Shown one piece after another: positions 1,101 through 34,159 of a stretch of DNA of 42,861 bases; the stretch's first letter is position 1; every line of letters starts with the position of its first letter. A program made the position numbers and the translations under genes. A model generated the notes under the pieces. That model had not been told where the DNA came from. It searched no databases and was given only the letters and a program-made list of their open reading frames with translations. This DNA comes from a virus, in IMG/VR virus record IMGVR_UViG_3300047319_000952, positions 1-42,861 of that record; one strand, given 5' to 3'.

Positions 1101-1883
1101 ATGATACGCCGCATCCATCCGATGGAGCGTATCCCACGGGGGTACGGCTTCGCCTACCGTGAGATGGACACAGACTGGTCCTTCGTTGCTCCCATCCCGT
1201 TGAACTTCATCATCGGGTGGGTGTACAACTTCTACTGGCGCGTGCTGGTGCGCGGCGTCCCAACGACGCTCCGCGACATCAAGTACCGCGCTCACACCCG
1301 GGGATGGGACGATGGCTACAAGCAAGGCTGTTCGGACAAGAACCTCGCGTGGCTCGAAGGCTACAACGCGGGCGTCGAAGCGCGCCTCACCGCAATCAAA
1401 GCGGCGGCGGAAGTCGGTGGCGGACGCGGCTTGGGCCGGGATGTCACGTGCCCAACTCCTCGCGTGCTTGGACCCGGAGATGGGAATCGAGAGGGTGCTG
1501 GAACTCTCGACGGCTACACGCTCCACGTTGATACGGCTTATCAAGGCGGAGATTCGCCGATACGCGCGAGCGGCGGAGCGGTGGAAGTGCCCGAGGGGAC
1601 ATGTGAAGGGCGACCCGGAGTGTGGGCTGATGTGCAGCCTGACGACCATCGACCCGATGCCGGAGTTGTTCCTGCCGACGGCAACGAAGACAGCGTCAAC
1701 GCACAAGTACCACGAGTGGATGGACAAACAGACGCCAGCGGAAGACCGGCTGTCACCGATAGGGATGGTAGACCCGTACGAGTCGTCGCTTGGGGGTGCA
1801 TCCCGACCGACCTCGGAGATTTCTGGTACCCCATCGCCGAGCAACGGAAAGGACTCTACGACCGCCGCTCCATCCGCCTGTGA
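1101..1883 (+). CDS. Hypothetical protein; only the first ~110 codons look coding
   Basis: The open frame encodes 260 residues. Residues 1-110 look genuine: aromatic-rich, with a hydrophobic stretch (PLNFIIGWVYNFYWRVLV, about residues 33-50) that could be a membrane anchor, then a helical segment containing WDDGYKQG and YNAGVEA. From about 1425 to 1790 the composition becomes Gly/Asp/Arg-rich and the better coding signal moves to the frame of the next entry. The last 30 codons (CIPTDLGDFWYPIAEQ region) look coding again, but more likely belong to the next gene across a frameshift. I do not recognise a family. The end coordinate should be treated as doubtful. Confidence 0.5.
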   Translation: MIRRIHPMERIPRGYGFAYREMDTDWSFVAPIPLNFIIGWVYNFYWRVLVRGVPTTLRDIKYRAHTRGWDDGYKQGCSDKNLAWLEGYNAGVEARLTAIKAAAEVGGGRGLGRDVTCPTPRVLGPGDGNREGAGTLDGYTLHVDTAYQGGDSPIRASGGAVEVPEGTCEGRPGVWADVQPDDHRPDAGVVPADGNEDSVNAQVPRVDGQTDASGRPAVTDRDGRPVRVVAWGCIPTDLGDFWYPIAEQRKGLYDRRSIRL

Positions 1884-2199
1884 CTTCATCGTAGAAACGT
1901 ATCGCCAAAATGACATGGGTGACTTGCATCGCCTGATGACGACACACATCGCAACCGACTACATGAACTGGGCGGCATTCGCGGAAAACTATCGCAAGTT
2001 GTGTCTTCAGTTCGAGGAGCCGAAGCGGAAGCGCGGCTGGTGGCCCGACTCGTGGGGCTGGTGGTGGCGCATTCCGTACGGCTGGTGGCTCACCCTCGTG
2101 CGGTGGTTCGATGAGTATAGCGAGGCGAACTATCAGATGGTCAAGGCGGAGTGCGAAGCCAAAAACGCTCTGTTGGAATACGAGAGGACGGGCAAGTGA
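1441..2199 (+). CDS. Hypothetical protein(s), possibly two genes joined by a frameshift
   Basis: The frame is open from 1441 (ATG; an alternative GTG at 1417 has GGAAG upstream) to 2199, 252 residues. Residues 1-115 read as a helical protein with a CPRGH...C...C cluster. Adding one G to the five-G run at 1792-1796 would join this segment to the coding-like end of the other frame, which stops at 1883. In that model a separate 94-residue gene starts at ATG 1915 and ends at 2199: it is extremely Trp-rich (PDSWGWWWRIPYGWW) and may be membrane-associated. I recognise neither part. The stop at 2199 is shared with the GTG start of the next gene (GTGA overlap), which supports the 3' end. Confidence 0.55.
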   Translation: MSRAQLLACLDPEMGIERVLELSTATRSTLIRLIKAEIRRYARAAERWKCPRGHVKGDPECGLMCSLTTIDPMPELFLPTATKTASTHKYHEWMDKQTPAEDRLSPIGMVDPYESSLGGASRPTSEISGTPSPSNGKDSTTAAPSACDFIVETYRQNDMGDLHRLMTTHIATDYMNWAAFAENYRKLCLQFEEPKRKRGWWPDSWGWWWRIPYGWWLTLVRWFDEYSEANYQMVKAECEAKNALLEYERTGK

Positions 2200-2459: not shown

Positions 2460-2716
2460 TGAATCCGACCATCCTGAGCCCGTGGTTCGTTGTCATTCGC
2501 TACGACAACGTCTACGCCGAGAACTCGAACGGGCAGCAGATTGCGTGGATACCTCAGTGGTACACCTCGCAGAACGGTGATGAACCACCGTGGTCGAAGG
2601 ACCGGAAGCACGCCATGATATTCAACTCGCTCCACTCGGCCCATCGTGTCGCGCAAGGGTGCGGTGGCTACGTCGTGGCCGTGTGTGACGAGGAGGACCA
2701 TGCCGAATACCGATGA
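2459..2716 (+). CDS. Hypothetical protein
   Basis: An 85-residue protein starting MNPTILSPWFVVIRYDN, an alternating polar/hydrophobic strand pattern suggesting a small alpha/beta fold. The start ATG overlaps the upstream stop. The 3' end overlaps the next gene by 17 bases, and the strong GAGGAGG ribosome-binding site of that next gene lies inside this coding region. No recognisable motif; function unknown. Confidence 0.7.
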   Translation: MNPTILSPWFVVIRYDNVYAENSNGQQIAWIPQWYTSQNGDEPPWSKDRKHAMIFNSLHSAHRVAQGCGGYVVAVCDEEDHAEYR

Positions 2717-3170
2717 CGGTCCTACGCCCAACGAGGCGTACGCACGTCTACGCCGGATGTTCGAGGGACACTTCACACCATACAAGCACAACGTACACAT
2801 CCCGTGGACGTACGCGACGGAGCGGATGCTACAGACCCCCGCTGAGAAGCGCACTGTCTACGGAGACTATCACCTCATACAAGGAGTTCTCATGCTCAAG
2901 CCGCACGGCCCGCGCTACCTCGTGAAGCGCATGGACCCGGAGCGCCCCACGTCTTCATCCATCATCATCCCCGACACCATCGACGGCGAGGGCTCGCTGT
3001 TCGCCCTCGTGCTCGCGGTCGGGACGCGCTGCCATGAAGACGTTGAAGTCGCCGACACCGTCGTGCTCCAGAAGTACGTGGGCGCACCGGTGAGCGTGGA
3101 CTTCGACGGCGAACACCTCGATGCACTCATCGTCATGGAAGACGACATTCTCGGCGTAGTGGAGGACTAA
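2700..3170 (+). CDS. GroES-like co-chaperonin with N-terminal extension
   Basis: Residues 65-156 match the GroES/Cpn10 fold: YLVKRMDPERP, the mobile-loop/IIIPDT segment, VADTVVLQKYVGAPVSVD and the C-terminal EDDILGVVE signature. Co-chaperonins cap GroEL, and phage versions (T4 gp31 is the classic case) adapt host GroEL to fold the capsid protein. The full frame from ATG 2700, which has a strong GAGGAGG ribosome-binding site, gives 156 residues, about 60 more than a normal GroES. The extension (residues 1-64) has no recognised domain. A second in-frame ATG at 2892, preceded by AAGGAG, would give a standard-length 92-residue GroES. Either or both products may be made. The stop overlaps the next start (TAATG). 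Confidence 0.85.
   Translation: MPNTDDGPTPNEAYARLRRMFEGHFTPYKHNVHIPWTYATERMLQTPAEKRTVYGDYHLIQGVLMLKPHGPRYLVKRMDPERPTSSSIIIPDTIDGEGSLFALVLAVGTRCHEDVEVADTVVLQKYVGAPVSVDFDGEHLDALIVMEDDILGVVED
2881..2886 (+). promoter_or_regulatory. Internal ribosome-binding site for short GroES form
   Basis: A perfect AAGGAG lies five bases upstream of ATG 2892, in frame within the extended GroES gene. It decides whether a 92-residue canonical GroES is produced in addition to, or instead of, the 156-residue form. Spacing is optimal for bacterial initiation. Confidence 0.65.
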
Positions 3171-3394
3171 TGAAGTCATTCTTCGTCATCATCGGCGTGC
3201 CGCTTCTTCTGGCCCTCGTGTCCGTGCTCATCCTCGTCTGCTACGGCATCGGTGGCATCGTGTTCTCGTGGTTCTGGAACTGGCTTGCGCCCGTAGTCGT
3301 AGCCACCGCACCACACCTCTCCGCGAATGGCGGCTTCGCCCTCGGCGTGTTGGTCGGTGCGTTCCAGTGGTTGCTCGCGAAGCGTGGCAAATGA
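3170..3394 (+). CDS. Small membrane protein, two transmembrane segments
   Basis: A 74-residue protein. Residues 4-36 form a long hydrophobic segment (VIIGVPLLLALVSVLILVCY and onwards), with a second at about 54-70, and a basic LLAKRGK tail. This is an inner-membrane protein with a short loop. It overlaps its neighbours by one and four bases. It could be holin-like by size and topology, but it is far from the endolysin gene and a holin candidate exists elsewhere (20346-20756), so I leave the function open. Confidence 0.7.
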   Translation: MKSFFVIIGVPLLLALVSVLILVCYGIGGIVFSWFWNWLAPVVVATAPHLSANGGFALGVLVGAFQWLLAKRGK

Positions 3395-3578: not shown

Positions 3579-4292
3579 ATGTTGAACATCGTCATCCCGA
3601 TGTGCGGGAACGGTCAGCGATTCAAGGATGCCGGCTATGAGGACCCGAAGCCGTGGATGCCCGCGCGGGGCAAGTCCATGATTCAGGCGGTCGTGGACAA
3701 CCTGTCCGGGTTCGTCGCGAATGAGGACGCGCGCTTCATCCTCATCACGCAGAACGGACTCACCGGAGACATCGACTTCGGTCCTCACGGGCACAAGGTG
3801 CTCGCCGTGGGTTCGACCGAGGGCGCTGTTGCAACTTTGCTGCACGCTAGTCTTCATGTGCTCACGAGTGAGGGGCTACTCATTGCGAACTGCGACCAGA
3901 TTGTGGACCTTGAGCCTAACGAGTGGGCGATGCCCCTCGGCATGGATGGCTCGCTGCTCACCTTCTGCGAGCCCTCGCGGAGCCGGGCGTGGTCGTACGT
4001 GGTGAAGTCCTCGAATGGTCACATCGCACGCATTGTCGAGAAGAAGCCCATCTCGTCCGAGGCGTGTGTCGGCATCTACTACTTCCGCCACTCTCACACC
4101 TTCATGGACACCGCGCTCAGAGTGGTGCAAGAGGAACGGCCGGCAGTGAACGGCGAATACTATACGTCACAAGTCATCCAGCGCATGGTGGATGAACGTG
4201 TGGACCTCGGCACGTTCGAGGTGGAGCGCGCCCGTGTGCACATGATTGGCACGCCCGAGCTACTGCGGAGCTACAATGACTGTGCTTTTTGA
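3579..4292 (+). CDS. Sugar-phosphate nucleotidyltransferase-like protein
   Basis: A 237-residue protein of the NTP_transferase fold. The N-terminal strand and nucleotide-binding loop read IVIPMCGNGQRF, followed by PKPWMPARGKSMIQ, the equivalent of the PKP/K substrate loop. A strand with the metal-binding Asp follows (LLIANCDQIVD), then IARIVEKKP and a VGIYYFR strand. Known members transfer NMP to sugar 1-phosphates, giving activated NDP-sugars for glycosyltransferases. It opens a run of sugar-related genes and overlaps the HAD phosphatase by 17 bases, so the two are probably made together. Which sugar is activated cannot be told. The start at 3579 (after GGAAAGG) is preferred over an in-frame upstream start. 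Confidence 0.8.
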   Translation: MLNIVIPMCGNGQRFKDAGYEDPKPWMPARGKSMIQAVVDNLSGFVANEDARFILITQNGLTGDIDFGPHGHKVLAVGSTEGAVATLLHASLHVLTSEGLLIANCDQIVDLEPNEWAMPLGMDGSLLTFCEPSRSRAWSYVVKSSNGHIARIVEKKPISSEACVGIYYFRHSHTFMDTALRVVQEERPAVNGEYYTSQVIQRMVDERVDLGTFEVERARVHMIGTPELLRSYNDCAF

Positions 4293-4869
4293 CCTCGACG
4301 GCGTCCTGTTCGAGAGCCGGGACATGCACTTCCGCACGCTGAATCAGGCGCTCGCGGAGCGCAACCTCCCGACCATCTCGGCCTACGACCACAGTCAGAC
4401 GTACAATGGGCGCCCGACGGCCGAGAAGTTACGGCTGCTGGGCATCCCCATTGCGGAGCAGGTTGCCGTGCGCGAGCGCAAGCAGGTGCTCACGCTCGAA
4501 TGGGTGTCGAAGCTGACGACGGATAGCCGACTGGTCGGCCTTTTCTCCGACCTCAAACGGCGTGACCACCTCATCGGCGTGTGCTCGAACTCGGTGCGTG
4601 CGACGACGGAGTCGGCTCTCAGGGCGCTGGGTCTTCGAGGGTTCTGCAACATCGTCCTCTCGAATCAGGACGTGGAGCGTCCGAAGCCACACCCGGAAAT
4701 CTACTGGCGGGCTATCATGGCCCTCGGCGCATGGCCTCGCGAGACGGTCATCGTTGAGGACAGCCTCGTGGGCCTTGCCGCGGCGGGCTATACGGGCGCC
4801 AATATCCTCGAAGTCGAAGGGCCAGAGGACGTTACGCTCGACGCCATCTTCAGGACGTTCGCGTCATGA
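4276..4869 (+). CDS. HAD-superfamily phosphatase/phosphomutase, beta-PGM-like
   Basis: A 197-residue HAD hydrolase with all core motifs: LFDLDGVLFES (nucleophile Asp, DxD), VCSNS (motif II), RPKPHPEIY (motif III Lys) and IVEDSLVGLAAA (motif IV). The helical cap between motifs I and II (about residues 20-85) is the small C1 cap of beta-phosphoglucomutase and related sugar-phosphate phosphatases. Next to a nucleotidyltransferase it probably prepares a sugar phosphate, either by dephosphorylation or by moving the phosphate to C1. Substrate unknown. It overlaps both neighbours (17 and 4 bases). Confidence 0.8.
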   Translation: MTVLFDLDGVLFESRDMHFRTLNQALAERNLPTISAYDHSQTYNGRPTAEKLRLLGIPIAEQVAVRERKQVLTLEWVSKLTTDSRLVGLFSDLKRRDHLIGVCSNSVRATTESALRALGLRGFCNIVLSNQDVERPKPHPEIYWRAIMALGAWPRETVIVEDSLVGLAAAGYTGANILEVEGPEDVTLDAIFRTFAS

Positions 4870-5081
4870 TTACGGTCTACGTTCCCGAGCCCGTGTTGGA
4901 GAAGATGCTCGCACAGTGGGAACCCGCAGCCAGAGCACAGATGCCGTGCTACCGCTTCGCCAAGTGCTGGGGCTGCGGACGCACGCTGTTCTTCGGCATG
5001 TGGCACATCTTCTTCCGACGCGACCAGCGCGAAGCACACCTCTGTCGGAAGTGCGGGCGCCCGTACGAGATTCAACTGTGA
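4866..5081 (+). CDS. Zinc-finger-like small protein
   Basis: A 71-residue protein with two Cys pairs, CWGC at about residue 34 and CRKC at about 60, separated by an aromatic FFGMWHIFF stretch. This is a treble-clef/zinc-ribbon-like arrangement. ATGA overlap upstream and GTGA overlap downstream place it inside the sugar operon. No family assigned. Confidence 0.65.
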   Translation: MITVYVPEPVLEKMLAQWEPAARAQMPCYRFAKCWGCGRTLFFGMWHIFFRRDQREAHLCRKCGRPYEIQL

Positions 5082-5808
5082 CCACCACCTACATCTTCCA
5101 CGTCATCGGGACGCTCACGATGGCCCACGTGGCGCTGGCGGCGGAGTCGATGGGGCGGCAGCGGTTTCGGTGGCAGAACCTCGTAGTGCACAACGCGAGC
5201 ACGCTACCACTCCAGCCTATCCTCGACCTGATGCCCGCGGGGCAGTTCGACAAGGTGCAGGTGCTCGACTACAACCCGAAAGACCCACCGACGTGCGCGC
5301 AAGACTGGTTCAAACAGATGCGGTACGTCTGCGGGACCGACCGCTACTTCTCACACAAGGCGGACTTCTATCTCGCCAACGGTGTGTGCGAGGCGTTCGA
5401 CTCGCTGCCCGAGGGCGACTGGTTCGTGCCGTTCCACAAGTACGACATGAAGTCCCGGGCGAGCATCGCGACGCTGCGTGAGTACGCGGCGCTGCCGTGG
5501 GAGGAAGGGCTCAAGCTGTCCACCACGGGCTCGTACCAGAAGCACCTCGGCAAGCTGGCCATCCCGTTCATGCAGACGCAGGGCGTGGACGGCACCATCC
5601 ACGGGTACACCGAAGCTGCGAGGGGCTGTACGCTCCGTCGCTGCTCGAACGCAACACGCGCTGGGGCGTGGCCGAATCGCTCCGCGACATGCAAGAGCAC
5701 ATCCCCTTCATCACCAACGACACGCGGTTCTTCGCCTGCCACATGTGGCACGAGAGCCCGGACCGCACTGACTGGAACAAGAACACTTCGCCGGAGGAAC
5801 GCTTCTAA
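5078..5808 (+). CDS. Putative glycosyltransferase-like protein, frameshifted
   Basis: From GTG 5078 the frame reads as protein to about 5615 (MTTTYIFHVIGTLTMAHVAL...; YFSHKADFYLANG; EGDWFVPFHKYDM). The coding signal then continues in the -1 frame (LYAPSLLERNTRWG to SPEERF) and stops at 5808, overlapping the next ATG. Adding one G to the GGGG run at 5622-5625 restores one reading frame of about 243 residues. The fragment up to the shift resembles proteins of phage glycosyltransferase clusters in size and context, but I see no convincing DxD motif, so the enzymatic call rests mostly on neighbours. The unshifted frame runs on to 5818 in a non-protein-like tail. Confidence 0.55.
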
Positions 5809-6542
5809 TGGCCCATGACCCGGAAGTCCAGAAGTACAGCATGATGCAGAAGGCGTACTACGCGAGCATCCCACCCATCGACTCGTCGATGAAGAACTCG
5901 GTGGTCGGCTGCTTCGACGAGCACGAGCGGTATCCGTACGAGGACTACCTGCTCGACAGGAATCCCGCGCGCAATCTCGCCCTCGACTTCGGCTGCGGTC
6001 CCGGCCGCATGATTCTTCGCATGGCGCCGCTGTTCGGCCGTGTGGATGGCGTGGACATTTCGCCGACGTGCATCGAGACCGCCGAGCGGTGGACTGCGGG
6101 TCTGCTGAACAAACCGAAGCTATACGTCAATGACGGAGTCACGCTTGAGGGCATCCCCTCGGAGACGTACGACTTCGTCTACTCGACCATCGCGTTCCAC
6201 CACATCAACTCGTACGTCATCCGCATGTCGCTGCTGCGCGAGTTCTTCCGCGTGCTGGCGCCGGGCGGGCGCATCTCCATCCAGATGTTCTACACGACGA
6301 CGGGCCGCACGCAATGGGCGCAGCACACGTCATGGCGCGAGAGCAAGCACGACGCCCCCTCGACCAATGGCTACTTTGACGTGCGCATCTCCCCGGACAA
6401 CCTCCCCGAGGTGATGGAGGACTTGAAGGCCATCGGCTTCGAGCAGCCGGAGAGCGTGCTCGCACCCTACCCGCCGCCGCCACACCCGCAAGGGCCGAGC
6501 GAGACGGACTGGATTTTCATCCACGCGGTGAAGCCGTGGTAG
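5808..6542 (+). CDS. Class I SAM-dependent methyltransferase
   Basis: A 244-residue protein with the Methyltransf_11/25 pattern: motif I ALDFGCGPGR (about residue 57), an acidic end of strand 2 in VDGVDISP, the post-II segment YDFVYSTIAFHHI, and a FFRVLAPGGRISIQMF strand. Methyltransferases of this type in glycan clusters often methylate sugar hydroxyls or carboxyls, but small molecules and proteins are equally possible. It sits between two glycosyltransferase-like genes with overlapping ends (one and seven bases), suggesting one pathway. Substrate not determined. Confidence 0.85.
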   Translation: MAHDPEVQKYSMMQKAYYASIPPIDSSMKNSVVGCFDEHERYPYEDYLLDRNPARNLALDFGCGPGRMILRMAPLFGRVDGVDISPTCIETAERWTAGLLNKPKLYVNDGVTLEGIPSETYDFVYSTIAFHHINSYVIRMSLLREFFRVLAPGGRISIQMFYTTTGRTQWAQHTSWRESKHDAPSTNGYFDVRISPDNLPEVMEDLKAIGFEQPESVLAPYPPPPHPQGPSETDWIFIHAVKPW

Positions 6543-7198
6543 ACCGGCTGCTCGTCGTAGCGACGAACAACGGGGACGACCGGGTTCGGCAGATTGTCGC
6601 TGCGACGGACACGCCGATTCTGGTGGTGGACACCAACCTCGAACGCGGTCCGCGCCCGGACGACATCCTCGACAAGCCGCACGTCGTGGGCTGGCTCCAG
6701 ACGCCGTACGGTGGGTACGACACGGGCGCTTACCTGTGGGCGTACTTCAACGTCGAAGCCGCGGAATACATGTTCATGCAGGACTCGTGCCTGCCGCGGT
6801 CCCGGGACTTCGTGGACACGTTCCACGACTACATGCCGGGGCCGATGGGCGTCGTGGCGTGGAACCTATTCTCGTTGACCATCTGGGATTCACCAGAGCA
6901 GCGCACCGCTGTGGACTTCACGATGGGTCAGGGCGCACCGTGGCCCGACAAGGGAATCTTCGGTCCCATCTTCTACACGTCGCGACTCGCGCTCGACCGA
7001 CTCGCTCGCAAGCGTCTGCTCCCGCCGTACGCGCTGCACAAGCAGGGCGCGCAGGGCATGGAGAGGGCATGGGCAATCGGGTTCCACCGCGCGGGCATCC
7101 CCGTCCGAGGGCTCACCGACACACACGAGCCTGACCGCGCGGCGATGGCAGCAGGTAGGCTCCCACTTCTCACGAAGTCGTTCGGAGGGCGTGCATGA
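6536..7198 (+). CDS. Glycosyltransferase-like protein
   Basis: A 220-residue protein from GTG 6536. The N-terminal LLVVATNNGDDRVRQIV and ILVVDTN strands and the segment GGYDTGAYLWAYFN followed by YMFMQDSCLP resemble GT-A-fold proteins, where an acidic pair after a hydrophobic strand binds the metal-nucleotide. Only QDS is present rather than a clean DxD. It is shorter than most GT2 enzymes. The position between the methyltransferase and a clear GT2 gene, with seven- and four-base overlaps, supports a glycan role. Confidence 0.6.
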   Translation: MVDRLLVVATNNGDDRVRQIVAATDTPILVVDTNLERGPRPDDILDKPHVVGWLQTPYGGYDTGAYLWAYFNVEAAEYMFMQDSCLPRSRDFVDTFHDYMPGPMGVVAWNLFSLTIWDSPEQRTAVDFTMGQGAPWPDKGIFGPIFYTSRLALDRLARKRLLPPYALHKQGAQGMERAWAIGFHRAGIPVRGLTDTHEPDRAAMAAGRLPLLTKSFGGRA

Positions 7199-8202
7199 AA
7201 TCACTTGGCATCATCATCTCGACGCCCGGCCGGCGCTCGCTGGCGAAGACACTCCAGAGCATCTTCTACCAGCGCGAGCCGGTAGAGGATGTGCTGGTCG
7301 TGGGCGACGGCTTCGACGCACCGACGAGTGAACTGGTGTCCTACTTCAAGGACATTGGTCTGCCCGCGCGCTACGTCGCGACGACGAAGACGCGGGACTG
7401 GGGGCACTCGCAAATCAACTACGGGCTCCAGCAAGTACGCGGTGACTACGTGACGTATCAGGATGACGACGACATCTACCTTCCTCGCGCCCTTGAGGAG
7501 ATGGCCCGGCTGGCTGAGAACCTCGACTCGCCCCGGCCTATCCTCGGGCGCGTGAAGACGCCAATCCTCGGTGTGCTCTGGCAGATGCCGGGGATACAGG
7601 CGTGCTTGGATGGTCACTGTCTCGTCGCACCGAACGACAAGCGCCGCCTCGGCTGGATGCTGCCACAGTACAACGGCGACCAGTGCCTTCTCCACACGAC
7701 CATTCGGAACTACCCCGAGTGTGCGTGGGCCGACCGCATCTGGACACTGACGCGCCCGAAGTGGACGCTCATGCCGTGGCGACAAGGGCACGGCCCCGCC
7801 GAGGGCGACCGCCCGGAGTGGTGGTCGTGGGACTTCTACCGAGACTCTGACCTCGTGCCATGCGCGAAGCTAGAGATGTGGAAGGACGAGCGCCACGACC
7901 TGATGCACGCGAAGCTGCTGGCGTGGGCGGCGAACATCACCGAAGATGAACTCGGCGACGTTGCGCAGTTCGTGGTGTACGCAGGGCAAGGTAACGACGT
8001 GTCGTTCACGTACACGCCCGGCGAGCGCATCTCGACGGTGCTTCCCATCTGGAACTACAAGGAGCACTCACACACAGACCAAACACATAGCTGGCCTCCC
8101 GACTTCTGGCCCCCGATTCCACCGTTCGATAGATTCCTTACCGAGGATGGGCAGGAGCTACTCGACTGGCGCGACGACGTGTGGGGAGGGAGAGCCGTAT
8201 GA
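7195..8202 (+). CDS. GT2-family glycosyltransferase
   Basis: A 335-residue protein with a GT-A nucleotide-sugar domain: N-terminal LGIIISTPGRRSLAKTLQSI, then VEDVLVVGDGFDA (uridine-binding acidic residue), and the metal-binding DxD motif in YVTYQDDDDIYLPRALEEM at about residue 98. The DxD places it in GT2. Residues 200-335 form an uncharacterised Trp-rich C-terminal region (EWWSWDFYRD) that might recognise the acceptor. It ends the sugar island; ATGA overlap with the next gene. Donor and acceptor unknown; virion protein, host surface glycan and DNA base are all possible. Confidence 0.85.
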   Translation: MKSLGIIISTPGRRSLAKTLQSIFYQREPVEDVLVVGDGFDAPTSELVSYFKDIGLPARYVATTKTRDWGHSQINYGLQQVRGDYVTYQDDDDIYLPRALEEMARLAENLDSPRPILGRVKTPILGVLWQMPGIQACLDGHCLVAPNDKRRLGWMLPQYNGDQCLLHTTIRNYPECAWADRIWTLTRPKWTLMPWRQGHGPAEGDRPEWWSWDFYRDSDLVPCAKLEMWKDERHDLMHAKLLAWAANITEDELGDVAQFVVYAGQGNDVSFTYTPGERISTVLPIWNYKEHSHTDQTHSWPPDFWPPIPPFDRFLTEDGQELLDWRDDVWGGRAV

Positions 8203-8471
8203 AGGAACAGGATTGGAGTAAAGCCTACGCGTTGTCCGCGCTGCTGCCCGCGCGGGTGGCATGGGTGTTCAACACAACGAACATCGAAGGTGATGCTGTG
8301 CTCAACATCTGGGTGGACCGAGGGCTGTGGGAACTGTACGCCACGCTGCTGCATCTCGACACGCCCGACGAAACGAACAGTGATAGCGTGACGTGGTACG
8401 ACGAGGGGGGCTTCGCGCTCTCACTCATTCAACCGGAGGAACACAGTGGACGAGACAACGAATCAGTCTGA
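8199..8471 (+). CDS. Hypothetical protein
   Basis: A 90-residue protein starting at ATG 8199 within the upstream stop (ATGA). It has an alternating strand pattern (ARVAWVFNTTN, VLNIWVDRGLWELYATLL) and an acidic second half. No family recognised. The ribosome-binding site GGAGG for the next gene lies in its last codons and the two overlap by 26 bases. Confidence 0.65.
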   Translation: MKEQDWSKAYALSALLPARVAWVFNTTNIEGDAVLNIWVDRGLWELYATLLHLDTPDETNSDSVTWYDEGGFALSLIQPEEHSGRDNESV

Positions 8472-9456
8472 CGCCGCACAGGTGGCGATGGACAACCTGC
8501 TCAAGGTGGCGGGTGAGTCCGGCGCCGATGCCGTCGCGAAGTTGAAGGAGAAGTTGAAGGCGCTCAAGGCCCCCTCGGGCGTGCAGACCATGTCCGGCTC
8601 CGAGGCCGTGGATGTGCCCAAGGCGCTGACGGCCGAGGAACTTGGTGGTACGAAGGACGCTGCTGCGGCCCAGCCCGTGGCGGAGAAGTCGCTCACCGGT
8701 GACATGGTGGACTGGTCCGAGTACGACCTGAACTACAACGTGCGCCACCTGTACAAGAAGTCGGTCTACCGTGATACGCCGGAGGGACCGAAGTGGGTCA
8801 CGGTCATCCCGGACTTCCTGTCCCGGACCCGCGACTTCGGCAGCTTCGACAAGCAGGTGAAGGTGCCGGGCGGCCGCGCGGACGAGATGGAGTGGTTGAA
8901 CCTCGCGCAGTTCCTCAAGGACAAGGTGAACGGCCGGGAGCAGTGGCGTATCAGCGCCCTCATGCCCGCGGGAAGCCAGTGCGGCGTCCTGCTGGAGCGC
9001 GAGGTGCCGCTGATTCTGCCGGACCCGGTGCCGCTCAAGAAGTCCGAGGAAGTCGAAGTCCCGACGGCACCCGAGTTGAAGGCGGTCGAAGACGCGGCCC
9101 TCGCATACATGGAGAATGAGGGCTTGACACCAGTGGCTCCCGTGGTGCATGATACTCCCCCAGCCCCCATCGGTCTGCGCGGCATCGAGCGTGGGTCAGA
9201 CGAGGCGGAGGCCATCCGGGCGTCGTTGGAGGACAGCGGTGCGATTCAGGCTCGCGTGGGCGGCGGTGTTGCCCGGGCGATTCAGGTCGCGGCGCAAGAG
9301 ACGGTTGCGGCCCCCACCGAGGGTGTCATCCAGCCGGACGCCGAGTTCAATCCGCTCATTCAGGCGGCGGTGCCCTCGGCGGGCTACTCGGCGGCGCAGG
9401 ACATCCTGCGGGCGCTGACGGACCCGAACTTCCGGGCATCGCTGCCGCAGGAGTAA
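8446..9456 (+). CDS. Hypothetical phage protein with central folded domain
   Basis: A 336-residue protein from GTG 8446 (GGAGG at good spacing). Residues 1-85 are low-complexity Ala/Lys/Glu-rich. Residues 90-190 look folded (DWSEYDLNYNVRHLYKKSV, WVTVIPDFLSRTR, EWLNLAQFLKDKVNG). The rest is Pro/Ala-rich linker plus an Ala-rich C-terminus. I do not recognise the family. It sits between the sugar island and the replication module and is translated from its own strong site, so it may be abundant. Confidence 0.75.
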   Translation: MDETTNQSDAAQVAMDNLLKVAGESGADAVAKLKEKLKALKAPSGVQTMSGSEAVDVPKALTAEELGGTKDAAAAQPVAEKSLTGDMVDWSEYDLNYNVRHLYKKSVYRDTPEGPKWVTVIPDFLSRTRDFGSFDKQVKVPGGRADEMEWLNLAQFLKDKVNGREQWRISALMPAGSQCGVLLEREVPLILPDPVPLKKSEEVEVPTAPELKAVEDAALAYMENEGLTPVAPVVHDTPPAPIGLRGIERGSDEAEAIRASLEDSGAIQARVGGGVARAIQVAAQETVAAPTEGVIQPDAEFNPLIQAAVPSAGYSAAQDILRALTDPNFRASLPQE

Positions 9457-31400: not shown

Positions 31401-31882
31401 AGCGTCGCGTGCGTGCCATCGTCAACAGACTTGATGCGAGTCCCCTCGGGGAGGTTCGTGGCGCGAACCTGCCAACCCACCTGCAACCGCGTCGTGCCTT
31501 CGGCGGTGACGATGGTAATCTGCGCGTTGCCGTTGACAGTCGTCACCGACAGCAACAGGTCGATGGGGTCGATAGTCGTGGGCGACAGCGACGAGAGGCA
31601 GGCGTGAGACATGACGGTGTCGGTCGTCGCGACCAGTTGGTCGAACCGGCCAAGCTCGAACGACATGTGCGCGAGGCCCTTGACAGGGGAGGCGGAACCC
31701 GCCCACACGCTGCCGAGGGCCGTCGCGTTCACCGCGGTGCGGCCCGGAGCCCGCCAGATAGCCGGGTCCTTCTCGCGGTAGACACAGTCGTCCGCACGCT
31801 GGAGTTCGCCCTCACTGAGGAGCGACGGATGGCGCACGGTGACGAGACCACCATTGAGCAACTCACTCAGGGTTGTGGGCAT
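28490..31882 (-). CDS. Tail tubular/stabilisation-like structural protein, 1130 aa
   Basis: The N-terminus (LLNGGLVTVRHPSLLSEGELQRADDCVYREK) matches the start seen in many podovirus tail nozzle or packaged-DNA stabilisation-type proteins (T7 gp12/P22 gp10 analogues), where a 'GG-x-(3-10)-L..GE...N/D' strand begins a beta-propeller. The rest is beta-rich, with repeated FTATTGFP- and ITSTTLSSTS-type strands. It is longer than T7 gp12 (794 aa); residues 120-260 and about 940-1050 could be inserted beta domains. It lies directly after the adaptor, as expected for a tail tube/nozzle gene. The assignment is by pattern and synteny. Confidence 0.65.
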   Translation of the reverse strand: MPTTLSELLNGGLVTVRHPSLLSEGELQRADDCVYREKDPAIWRAPGRTAVNATALGSVWAGSASPVKGLAHMSFELGRFDQLVATTDTVMSHACLSSLSPTTIDPIDLLLSVTTVNGNAQITIVTAEGTTRLQVGWQVRATNLPEGTRIKSVDDGTHATLSQAPTSSTTLNYTFNPMQEMGGPALIAGSVTTNVFTATTGFPFLADIVGATVFLPGTTSIIVLSVSGQSGTTGHYNAITMSTGISNGAVSLFFVQGCVRTFTNSGDEIFDMSQYGGYYFTWNGKDPMQRIEWRPRKAPTTSSTLTYDDILSVRPAGLNPVVDQVTLTTIATIDGVACAWPPTLATGYYWFLHTEIFDPDSTADGEDNPLEIESAYYGKSASSKNSGEPVAVNITALTGVGVHVVFPRPINTGGDGRYATHYGLYMFGPTQDNRTFPPLGGFKRVAKIRLTTAASSGTQSKDLSDSRTVQTGYSSVSGVLGSFQQFTNPTFMAAGIAGYNSSNNADAFSGLSGSAGGPFGNLLGNFGFVTGAPWSTRTIYGIRITVRGAADAFGAAGSQAGYLYGLTAGGASKTTDDMLGVFTRTSLDAQTHGGEMETFGVGWVAADLADGTFKVRLIKSPTGSVQHLRVTGVKVEVFFTSGSINLNGQPFRIVTFRDQIGDTVNEPANGVPPTCTTGDLFQGSLVTNDLGDETAIRFSLPGAPESFPKPYVMRFNTTKRRDRVTCIRTLGPALYVGMQNGIKRVNYLPSESDTDFHEGLAHEDHASDHGIAGPLAAVKFDWPGAGTVMAYASFAGVFLTDGVAPRPLNIDLDWPNTVKLSALSTCVFRVYPREKWLVLYYCPAGATHNKNTKALVFSYAADKLKDGGRLPVTGPITVSGRSSTEVLMSGTQFLLTGHETTGIVYQEDFGTVQASGYQVHNASNSLAAAPITPVIRTRRLHPAGITHDTHLYKAYLLYSAYGTTNTAVANSTITSTTLSSTSAVFTNVVAGMRAKGSSLDEGTIVLSVAGDFKSCVLSRAANATSAGVTFTFDTGAIALSDRGLSIGETAATMHTQWGSTLKGDMLVMQLDDVRQGLELQVEKVPLTFTTDADGYRYDTATWADLGVNMRLHQFMILFDDQGPEQTRSVA

Positions 31883-31885
31883 GGA

Positions 31886-32845
31886 CTAGCTCCCCATTGT
31901 CGGCCAGAAGTCTCCGTTGCCCACGATGGGCCGGTACTGCGTGCCCTGCTCGTAAGCGGACTTCATGTAGTTGTCTTCGTCATCCTCGACTTCCTCCTCG
32001 GACTCGCCCGCCTCCTGCGTCTTCATCTTGACGCCTTCGAGGTAAGCCATCGGGTTTTCCTGCGCACGCTTCGCTTCGAGCAGAATCGCGCGGCAGTAGT
32101 CGAGGAATGGGTAGAGGAACTTGTCGTGAACATCCACGTACGTGCCGGTCTTGTTGAACGTCCGGTAGTAGCGGACGAACAGGTCATCGGCCTGCTGTGG
32201 GATGCGGTCGAACTTGATGTGCTGCGTGCCGTGGTTCTGCGTCACTTCGGCGTACGGGTTGTACTGCGTGTACGCCTCGGGCGTGCCCTGAATCGTTTGG
32301 TCCCACTGGACGCGGTCCCACTGGCGCTGCCGAATGTACTTGAGCGGTCGCTTCGAGTTCGTGAGGAAGCGCGCTGTGTAGATTTCGTGGCAGTCGTTCG
32401 GTAGGCTGTAGTCGTTGACGCCCGCGGTGATGTGGATGTTGGCGCCGAAGGTCAGCGTTGCGTTCGTATCGGTCGAACCACCGAAGGGGGCAGTAAGGAT
32501 GAAGGATGCGACTGTCCCGTCCGTATTGCGTGTGTAACTCAGAATCGTAGTGCCGGGCGCGAGTGTTGCATTCCCGGTCACTGTGACCGACTGCCCAGCG
32601 TTGACGAAGTCGAACGCCCCCGAGGTGGGGGCGTTCACGGTGGACTGACCGGAAGTCGCGGTGACACCAGTGACAACGGTCGGCATCGAGACATCCTTGA
32701 GCAGGAAGTCCCAGTTGCGCATGATTTGCCAGTCGGCGTACCCTCGGAGGAGGGCCTCACCGGCTTGGTCGATGAGCATCGGGGATTGCGCCCCGCCGAG
32801 GATACGAGAGATGTAGACCTTCGCATCGACCGTGGTAATGGACAT
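31886..32845 (-). CDS. Head-tail adaptor, T7 gp11-like (tail tubular protein A type)
   Basis: A 319-residue protein. The N-terminal helical part (AKVYISRILGGAQSPMLIDQ, YADWQIMRNWDFLLKD) and C-terminal part (FVRYYRTFNKTGTYVDV, FLYPFLDYCRAILLEAKRA) form the conserved adaptor core. A beta domain is inserted in the middle (about residues 58-135, TGVTATSGQSTVNAP...). The acidic tail GESEEEVEDDEDNYM is unusual. It would join the portal to the tail nozzle encoded next. It starts with ATG 32845, three bases after the GT4 stop. Confidence 0.7.
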   Translation of the reverse strand: MSITTVDAKVYISRILGGAQSPMLIDQAGEALLRGYADWQIMRNWDFLLKDVSMPTVVTGVTATSGQSTVNAPTSGAFDFVNAGQSVTVTGNATLAPGTTILSYTRNTDGTVASFILTAPFGGSTDTNATLTFGANIHITAGVNDYSLPNDCHEIYTARFLTNSKRPLKYIRQRQWDRVQWDQTIQGTPEAYTQYNPYAEVTQNHGTQHIKFDRIPQQADDLFVRYYRTFNKTGTYVDVHDKFLYPFLDYCRAILLEAKRAQENPMAYLEGVKMKTQEAGESEEEVEDDEDNYMKSAYEQGTQYRPIVGNGDFWPTMGS

Positions 32846-32848
32846 GTT

Positions 32849-34159
32849 CTACCTCAAGGGCTGCGCCACCTTCATGATTTCCTCGTGGGTCGCAGGCTGG
32901 ATGATGGGCTTCCCGAGGTCCCGCTTCTGCTTCGCCCGCGTCTCCGCGTAGAAGTCGAACAGGCCGGAGATGGTCTTCTCCGGCGTGCGGTTCTCGATGA
33001 CCCACTTGTGTGCAGCGGTGCCGAGGCGCTTGCGCAAGTCGGCGTCCTCGATAAGGAGGCCCAGCTTCTGCGCGAACTCCTCCGGTGTGGAGAACAACAA
33101 GCCGGTCTCGCCGTCAACGATTTCGTTGAACACTGGCCCGCGCTGCGCGAGGGTGGCCTCGGGCATGTCCTCGAAGATGGAACCCTCGTAGAACTTGATG
33201 GCGGACTTGCCAGCGTTGAACACGTTGTTGGCGAGCGGGCAGAGGTTGATGTCAGCGTTCAGGAGGCCGCGGCGCAGCTTGTACGCCGGGTACTGGTCCC
33301 ACGGGTGGAACTCGCGCATGGACGCGGGCACGACCTCGTTAATCCAGTCGAAGTATTCGCCGTAGATGACGAACGTGAACTGGTCGCGGTACTTCGCTAC
33401 GACTGCCGCGAGGGCCTCGCGCAACGGGTACCAGTCGATGAGGTGGGACATGCCGCCCTGCCAGAGGACGCGGACGCGCTTGTCGTTGCGGACGGCGCGC
33501 ACCCCGTAGTAGTGCTCAGGCGAGATGGTATTCGGGAACACGTAGACGCTCTTGCAGCCGATGACCTCGCGGATGTACTTCGCGAGCATCGGACTGGAGC
33601 AGGTGACGCCGTGCGCGGTGCGCATTACCTCGTGCCGCACCTTCATGTCGTGTAGATTGCGGGCAATGTCGAAGGTAACACCTTCGTACTTCGTGCGGCC
33701 ATCGACCCACGCGCCGAGCAGTTTGCCCTCGCCGGTCTTGAACTCCAGTCCTTCCCCCGGCTCCAACAGGTGGGCATCGGGATAACCGCGGACACCCATG
33801 TGGGCGAACGTCTGGTTGAAGGGGTGAACGAAGTCCGTGTTGTCGTCGCAGTCCCAGATGATTGCGGGCGGGTACACGTCGATGCCGGTGCCCTCGCCTT
33901 CGCGGTGGCCGGGCTTCATACGCTTGATGGTACGGAACTTGTGGAGCACGTCCTCGCCCGTGAGCGCGTAGAACTGCGCAATGTCCGAGTGGAGCATCGC
34001 GAGGTACGCTTCCTTCGCGTCTCCCTTCTGGTTGTCCTCGTACACCTGCACGAGGCCCTCCTTGGAGAGGTGCATCATCGGCACCTGAATCCGGTACCAG
34101 CCGCAAGCAGATTGCTGTTGCGAGACGTTGAGCGTGTAGCAGAAGAAGTCAGCAGCCAC
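32849..34159 (-). CDS. GT4-like glycosyltransferase (GT-B fold) inside the virion gene block
   Basis: A 436-residue protein with GT-B features. The second Rossmann half begins RVRVLWQGGMSHLIDWYPL, continues with QFTFVIYGEYF and ADINLCPLANNVFNAGKSAI, and then KFYEGS...VFNEIVDGETGLLFSTPEEFAQKL, the E-x7-E-like nucleotide-sugar site region of GT4 enzymes. The N-terminal half has CGWYRIQVPM. It is encoded between the small basic proteins and the tail adaptor, so it is probably made late with virion proteins and may glycosylate a capsid or tail protein. It could also act with the island at 3579-8202. Donor and acceptor unknown. Confidence 0.75.
   Translation of the reverse strand: MAADFFCYTLNVSQQQSACGWYRIQVPMMHLSKEGLVQVYEDNQKGDAKEAYLAMLHSDIAQFYALTGEDVLHKFRTIKRMKPGHREGEGTGIDVYPPAIIWDCDDNTDFVHPFNQTFAHMGVRGYPDAHLLEPGEGLEFKTGEGKLLGAWVDGRTKYEGVTFDIARNLHDMKVRHEVMRTAHGVTCSSPMLAKYIREVIGCKSVYVFPNTISPEHYYGVRAVRNDKRVRVLWQGGMSHLIDWYPLREALAAVVAKYRDQFTFVIYGEYFDWINEVVPASMREFHPWDQYPAYKLRRGLLNADINLCPLANNVFNAGKSAIKFYEGSIFEDMPEATLAQRGPVFNEIVDGETGLLFSTPEEFAQKLGLLIEDADLRKRLGTAAHKWVIENRTPEKTISGLFDFYAETRAKQKRDLGKPIIQPATHEEIMKVAQPLR

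Follow-up and report, generated by a model that had tools for sequence, protein, structure and literature searches.

The IMG/VR virus record IMGVR_UViG_3300047319_000952, a fragment of 42,861 bases that is taken here as a whole (the window), carries an island of seven genes, g1 to g7, on its + strand at 3579-8202 (g1 start 3579, g7 stop 8202). We read this island as one allele of a hypervariable glycan locus that occupies a fixed position in an uncultured, probably podovirus-like clade of phages. The genes of the island are as follows.

3579..4292, + strand: g1, sugar-phosphate-type nucleotidyltransferase (NTase), 237 residues, with GNGQRF..DPKP, NCDQ and EKKP motifs
4276..4869, + strand: g2, haloacid dehalogenase (HAD) enzyme with the beta-phosphoglucomutase (beta-PGM) fold and a C1 cap, 197 residues (HAD_2, 1.6e-23)
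4866..5081, + strand: g3, 71 residues with two CxxC pairs visible in the sequence, a possible zinc ribbon
5078..5808, + strand: g4, orphan of about 244 residues with an apparent frameshift at about 5600-5625 (two frames, with a frame switch in GC content at third codon positions, GC3)
5808..6542, + strand: g5, class I S-adenosylmethionine (SAM) methyltransferase, 244 residues (Methyltransf_25, 1.7e-16)
6536..7198, + strand: g6, probable divergent glycosyltransferase of the A fold (GT-A), 220 residues (marginal match to a protein of viral locus L183)
7195..8202, + strand: g7, family 2 glycosyltransferase (GT2), 335 residues (Glycos_transf_2, 2.8e-13)

Successive genes from g1 to g7 overlap by 17, 4, 4, 1, 7 and 4 bp, a further overlap of 4 bp joins g7 to the following gene, and the island with this downstream gene reads as a single translationally coupled + strand run. 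A preliminary description of this DNA, made from its letters alone, had listed seven overlapping + strand genes that share a unit with replication genes. The exact positions and the overlaps of 1-17 bp agree with this, and the island does lie inside a + strand replication unit with a helicase, an exonuclease, a primase, a Sak4-like annealing protein and DNA polymerase around it. A - strand structural unit of the window holds the portal, the major head protein and a head-tail adaptor. Recent import of the island, as judged by composition, was ruled out, as its GC and GC3 are those of the rest of the phage. A near-identity DNA search among phages gave no match.

The product of g1 matched PHROG_3980 (3.5e-39) and, in a profile search, PDB entry 4evw (2.2e-33), and it scored 21.0 bits against Pfam NTP_transferase, 0.2 bits short of the cut-off of 21.2. 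It carries the signature of sugar-1-phosphate nucleotidyltransferases (the GxGxRx..PKP loop, the metal Asp, EKP and the NTP_transferase fold), with the motifs conserved in the alignment, as expected for the sugar nucleotidyltransferase that had been proposed. Scanning viral contigs with g1 as a single protein yielded nothing, its relatives being reached only by alignments, and a protein search with g1 in 45 related records gave no match. The proposal of a beta-PGM-like HAD enzyme holds for g2 with respect to the fold and the HAD catalytic residues, both common to beta-PGM; D6, D8, S104, K137, E161 and D162 are all retained. Beta-PGM also has a phosphate-binding arginine, Arg49 of the cap domain (L. 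lactis numbering), and the aligned position is Thr48 in g2 and Thr in its viral relatives. Mutase activity is therefore unsupported for g2, which would rather be a phosphatase.

Evidence that these enzymes act together came from other viruses. We recruited viral loci with the NTase alignment alone and kept 80 out of many more. In 78 of the loci kept, a HAD homologous to g2 was fused to the NTase, which makes up the C-terminal half of the protein; in the remaining two the HAD gene was adjacent and not fused. In 28 of the 80 loci a homologue of g5 (∼32-38% identity, E<1e-10) was found near the HAD-NTase, most often as its immediate neighbour. Because NTase and HAD are thus fused or adjacent in every locus kept, g5 homologues accompany them in more than a third, and related phages hold other glycan gene sets at the equivalent position (see below), a functional association of g1, g2 and g5 in a sugar activation and transfer pathway is supported. 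The preliminary description had proposed nearly a full path from sugar phosphate to a transferred, possibly methylated glycan; the linkage of NTase, HAD and methyltransferase upholds part of this path, but the part given to g4 is unsupported and that of g6 is marginal.

Identity of g1 to the NTase halves of viral HAD-NTase fusions was ∼28-37%, and that of g2 to the HAD halves of cyanophage fusions was 39-42%. The closest relatives of g1 and g2 in isolated phages are the two halves of one fused cyanophage protein (B23, DSL-LC03, S-CAM9), surrounded by glycosyltransferases and epimerases. These T4-like cyanophage glycan (lipopolysaccharide, ‘LPS’) clusters therefore share with the window homologous NTase and HAD sequences (∼30-42% identity) and, as in the window clade, a setting of glycosyltransferases and sugar modifiers that is polymorphic between relatives. 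They differ in having a single HAD-NTase protein where the window has two genes in reversed order, and separate genes ordered NTase then HAD were not found among the 80 loci kept. The g5, g6 and GT2 genes are specific to the window clade, in which the phage is ∼60 kb long and the locus has a fixed place by replication genes. A gene resembling glycerophosphodiester phosphodiesterases, as recognized by eye (a representative had no Pfam match), was also present in 68 of the 80 loci (L165-L244).

The last gene of the island was described earlier as a clear GT2 enzyme, and this holds. It exceeded the Glycos_transf_2 cut-off (50.6 against 23.3 bits), has the acidic DxD motif, and its QDDDD is invariant across a six-member alignment. 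A single-protein scan of viral contigs with g7 returned nothing, and a GT2 scan of bacterial and archaeal genomes gave one weak match, in a short contig titled uncultured archaeon, and no clue to the host. For g6, family and profile searches gave no direct match to the GT-A family, hhalign against the GT2 family gave nothing for either g6 or g4, a single-protein scan of viral contigs gave nothing, and a single-sequence structure model was poor (predicted local distance difference test score, pLDDT, 39). Residues 25-191 of g6 do align colinearly with L183:1446-2186, a Glycos_transf_2 protein (2.4e-6) encoded directly upstream of a HAD-NTase fusion. As this alignment is below significance, we call g6 only a probable glycosyltransferase. 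The label of SAM methyltransferase for g5 was confirmed by its Pfam match.

The two other genes, g3 and g4, could not be placed. No family match and no relative was found for g3 in any search made. Similarly, g4 had no detectable homologue in any of the family and relative searches, and its single-sequence model was poor (pLDDT 46), so that the glycosyltransferase-like character attributed to it was not borne out. Nor is g4 one open frame. It is read in the frame of 5078 as far as about 5600-5620; from there to 5808 it lies 1 base out of phase, in the frame of 5497, and the GC3 periodicity switches with it. No canonical slippery heptamer was seen at the switch, which argues against programmed -1 frameshifting, and an assembly indel or a real mutation is more likely. 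Open reading frames 1101-1883 and 1312-2199 (window 1101-2199) also seem to be parts of a single coding region whose frame apparently changes at about 1330-1450, where GC3 switches as well. As this resembles the change in g4, it hints at indels in the assembly, and assembly or sequencing errors of this kind, and not biology, may be the source of the break in g4.

We then compared the island with the equivalent region of related phages. With the major head protein we recruited 62 related contigs, all metagenomic, of which 10 long ones contain the locus; three further contigs bearing it were found via the exonuclease, giving 13 relatives, two of which, G010 and G013, resemble each other closely. 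Two conserved genes delimit the locus.

2646..3170, + strand: GroES-like (Cpn10) gene, left boundary of the variable locus (Cpn10, 2.1e-10), kept in 13 of 13 relatives
8446..9456, + strand: conserved gene at the right boundary, no Pfam match, kept in 13 of 13 relatives

In all 13 relatives the interval runs from the GroES-like gene to the 8446-9456 homologue, and the adjoining replication genes are conserved. Its length ranges from about 1.1 to 5.2 kb and every relative has at least one GT2 gene in it, while the other genes differ. Families were assigned from Pfam matches of representatives, GNAT by a weak Pfam match in one allele and by homology elsewhere. The alleles comprise GNAT, DegT and GT2 (G004, G016, G039, G046, G058); GNAT, a short-chain dehydrogenase, DegT and GT2 (G012); a cytidylyltransferase, a formyltransferase, DegT and two GT2 (G018); a flavin adenine dinucleotide (FAD) oxidoreductase with GT2 enzymes (G037, G047); a cytidylyltransferase and GT2 (G008); and a lone GT2 (G010, G013, G031). 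Orthologues of g7, 43-56% identical, occupy the equivalent place in five relatives (G004, G012, G016, G018, G037), and the other eight have different GT2 types. Profiles for GT2, DegT, GNAT, CTP-transferase and FAD-oxidoreductase detected no copy outside the interval in the contigs of the 13 relatives; since the interval makes up a few percent of each contig, the clustering of glycan genes in it is far beyond chance. Two alleles (G037 31491-33380, locus L124, and L131 3760-5541) have in common a protein of about 600 residues that begins with a FAD oxidoreductase (DAO) domain and ends in a part weakly resembling RmlD.

The status of the island as a variable locus adds to the preliminary description, which had not seen it. 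That description had proposed a search for the same gene set in related phages and had regarded genes scattered singly among relatives as telling against a pathway. For the locus as a unit no such scattering was observed, as all 13 relatives have glycan sets in place; a glycan locus is thus found at the equivalent position, but g1-g6 themselves are in none of the 13. This absence, together with the frame break in g4 and the GC3 support on either side of it, could be taken to mean that the island is decaying or chimeric cargo in which only g7 matters and the rest are passenger genes. We consider this very unlikely: six of the seven frames are unbroken, catalytic motifs are retained and the overlaps are 1-17 bp; the GC and GC3 of the island do not depart from those of the phage at large; and the second apparent frame change, at about 1330-1450, points to indels introduced in assembly or sequencing.

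To what the sugar would be attached is suggested by the structural modules, where two further genes of the window are relevant.

32849..34159, - strand: core glycosyltransferase of the GT4-like type (PHROG_7162, 5.1e-19; weak Glyco_trans_1_2 match)
31886-32845: SU10-type head-tail adaptor gene, adjoining the GT4-like gene

The GT4-like gene stands beside the head-tail adaptor in every related record for which the structural module is available, and it is a possible partner of the variable locus. Its identity among related phages is 51-61%, and it apparently belongs to the core genes of the clade. In three cousins with head proteins 56-58% identical (G048, G049, G050), a glycan cassette immediately follows the portal gene and precedes the next structural genes (L143 5995-8839; L144 and L145 5989-8123): it consists of GT2, GNAT, GT2 and DegT in G048, and of GT2-GT2 with an epimerase in G049 and G050. 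The exonuclease that marks the replication site was not found in these cousins. In a different phage group, GT2, DegT and a GT4-like gene lie between the head-tail connector and the major tail protein (L137 4516-7833), and L139 has relatives of GT2, GNAT and DegT near an HK97-gp10-like tail component.

Because cassettes adjoin the portal gene in the cousins and are flanked by the connector and major tail protein genes in L137, with the GT4-like gene as a neighbour of the adaptor in the clade, we tentatively favour the virion as the acceptor of the island's sugar and put glycosylation of the particle at just under an even chance from this gene arrangement. Remodelling of the host surface is the principal alternative and, while distinctly possible, is the less probable of the two. 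Early enzymes would then modify LPS, capsule or another glycan of the envelope with an unusual and possibly methylated sugar, and so prevent the binding of rival phages, or of progeny adsorbing to debris. The position within the replication unit, which had suggested this reading earlier, speaks for it, and the rapid exchange of alleles is in keeping with an arms race over surface receptors. Similar cyanophage clusters have also been interpreted as a means of shutting out rivals by altering the host surface (PMC7824862). It is not the best reading, however, as homologous cassettes are embedded in the structural modules of at least two other phage groups, the GT4-like gene accompanies the adaptor clade-wide, and no clear membrane segment was seen. 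The highest 19-residue hydropathy mean across g1-g7 was 1.41, with no segment typical of a transmembrane helix, and among the cassette families examined there were neither flippases nor lipid-carrier transferases, nor membrane proteins of another kind, and no protein had a hydrophobic segment typical of the first two. The gtrABC serotype-converting cassettes of temperate phages need a membrane flippase, GtrA, and a membrane-anchored transferase. Like the window locus they are swappable cassettes of a few genes whose GT2 enzymes diversify a surface glycan, but by hydropathy g1-g7 have neither membrane component. No sign of lysogeny was seen, although no search was aimed at it.

Soluble glycosyltransferases in a replication unit could also glycosylate or hypermodify DNA against restriction, as in T4, and phage transferases that decorate DNA are cited in PMC12619734. 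This function, likewise raised in the preliminary description, is very improbable, since a thymidylate-synthase-family gene (dCMP/dUMP hydroxymethylase) was found in none of the 17 related records searched (about 10 near-complete; the window was outside the search), while 9 of 14 control genomes were positive. The swapping of sugar chemistry among relatives and the portal and tail location in the cousins are also unlike a conserved base modification.

In the pathway that we propose, g2 would dephosphorylate or otherwise process a phosphorylated sugar or polyol, and g1 would join its product to a nucleoside monophosphate to give a nucleoside diphosphate-activated donor. The g5 enzyme would methylate the donor or the product, and g7, with the probable glycosyltransferase g6, would transfer the activated sugar, most likely to a head, connector or tail protein, perhaps primed by the core GT4-like enzyme. 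These enzyme families predict neither the nucleotide nor the phosphosugar, so the sugar cannot be named. The alleles would place different chemistry on the surface of similar particles, namely amino sugars given an N-acyl group by GNAT or formyltransferase, cytidylyltransferase-activated sugars and, here, a methylated sugar. A clade-wide ‘glycan allele’ locus, in which the GT4-like enzyme primes virion proteins and interchangeable early-module GT2 cassettes cap them with different sugars to give serotype-like variation of particles, is a less likely extension of this reading.

Several points weigh against glycosylation of the particle. The locus of the window clade is in the replication unit and not in the structural unit; comparable cyanophage clusters are interpreted as acting on the host (PMC7824862, above); and lipid-linked glycans of the surface can equally be assembled by soluble transferases that rely on host flippases. 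Furthermore, g3 and g4 could not be placed and g4 is frame-broken in this sequence. A precedent in favour is given by mycobacteriophages, in which glycans are present on capsid and tail-tube subunits, as cited in PMC12619734. As PMC12619734 and PMC11256854 describe that system, it resembles ours in its phage-encoded glycosyltransferases, and its structural-gene location is matched in the cousins of the clade. The window locus, on the other hand, is outside the structural module and includes donor-synthesis enzymes.

Phage glycan clusters, above all in cyanophages, and virion glycosylation in mycobacteriophages are already known. We found no description of a fixed-position locus with interchangeable glycan sets, a constant GT2 and a GT4-like partner in an uncultured clade of ∼60 kb phages in the literature searched, mostly outside subscription journals. 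Phage glycan enzymes are usually met as single genes or within very large genomes, and what they modify is seldom known. Here, one clade offers no fewer than 13 additional natural alleles, which together with the structural-module cassettes of its cousins form a natural comparison set in which virion and host surface are directly testable as acceptors. The differing sugar-gene sets at one spot suggest a sugar coat that keeps changing, most likely that of the particles themselves and otherwise that of the infected cell. The locus may also serve as a source of donor-synthesis and transferase modules, and the recurrent HAD-NTase(-methyltransferase) unit, present in at least 80 viral contigs and with no product assigned, is a concrete biochemical target.

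Small genes were also seen at the edges of the locus. Between the GroES-like gene and the island, window 3170-3394 encodes a strongly hydrophobic protein of 74 residues, and small membrane proteins resembling it occur at the equivalent place in G004, G010 and G013. At the other end, window 8199-8471 is a small conserved gene, without a family match, that closes the variable locus in most alleles and has a NDDDAESPSVLNIF-type motif in relatives. Just 3' of the locus, some relatives encode an RNA-ligase-like protein, recognized by eye from its ITEKLDGTNAAV motif (L127 8211-8903 and L131 7859-8716).

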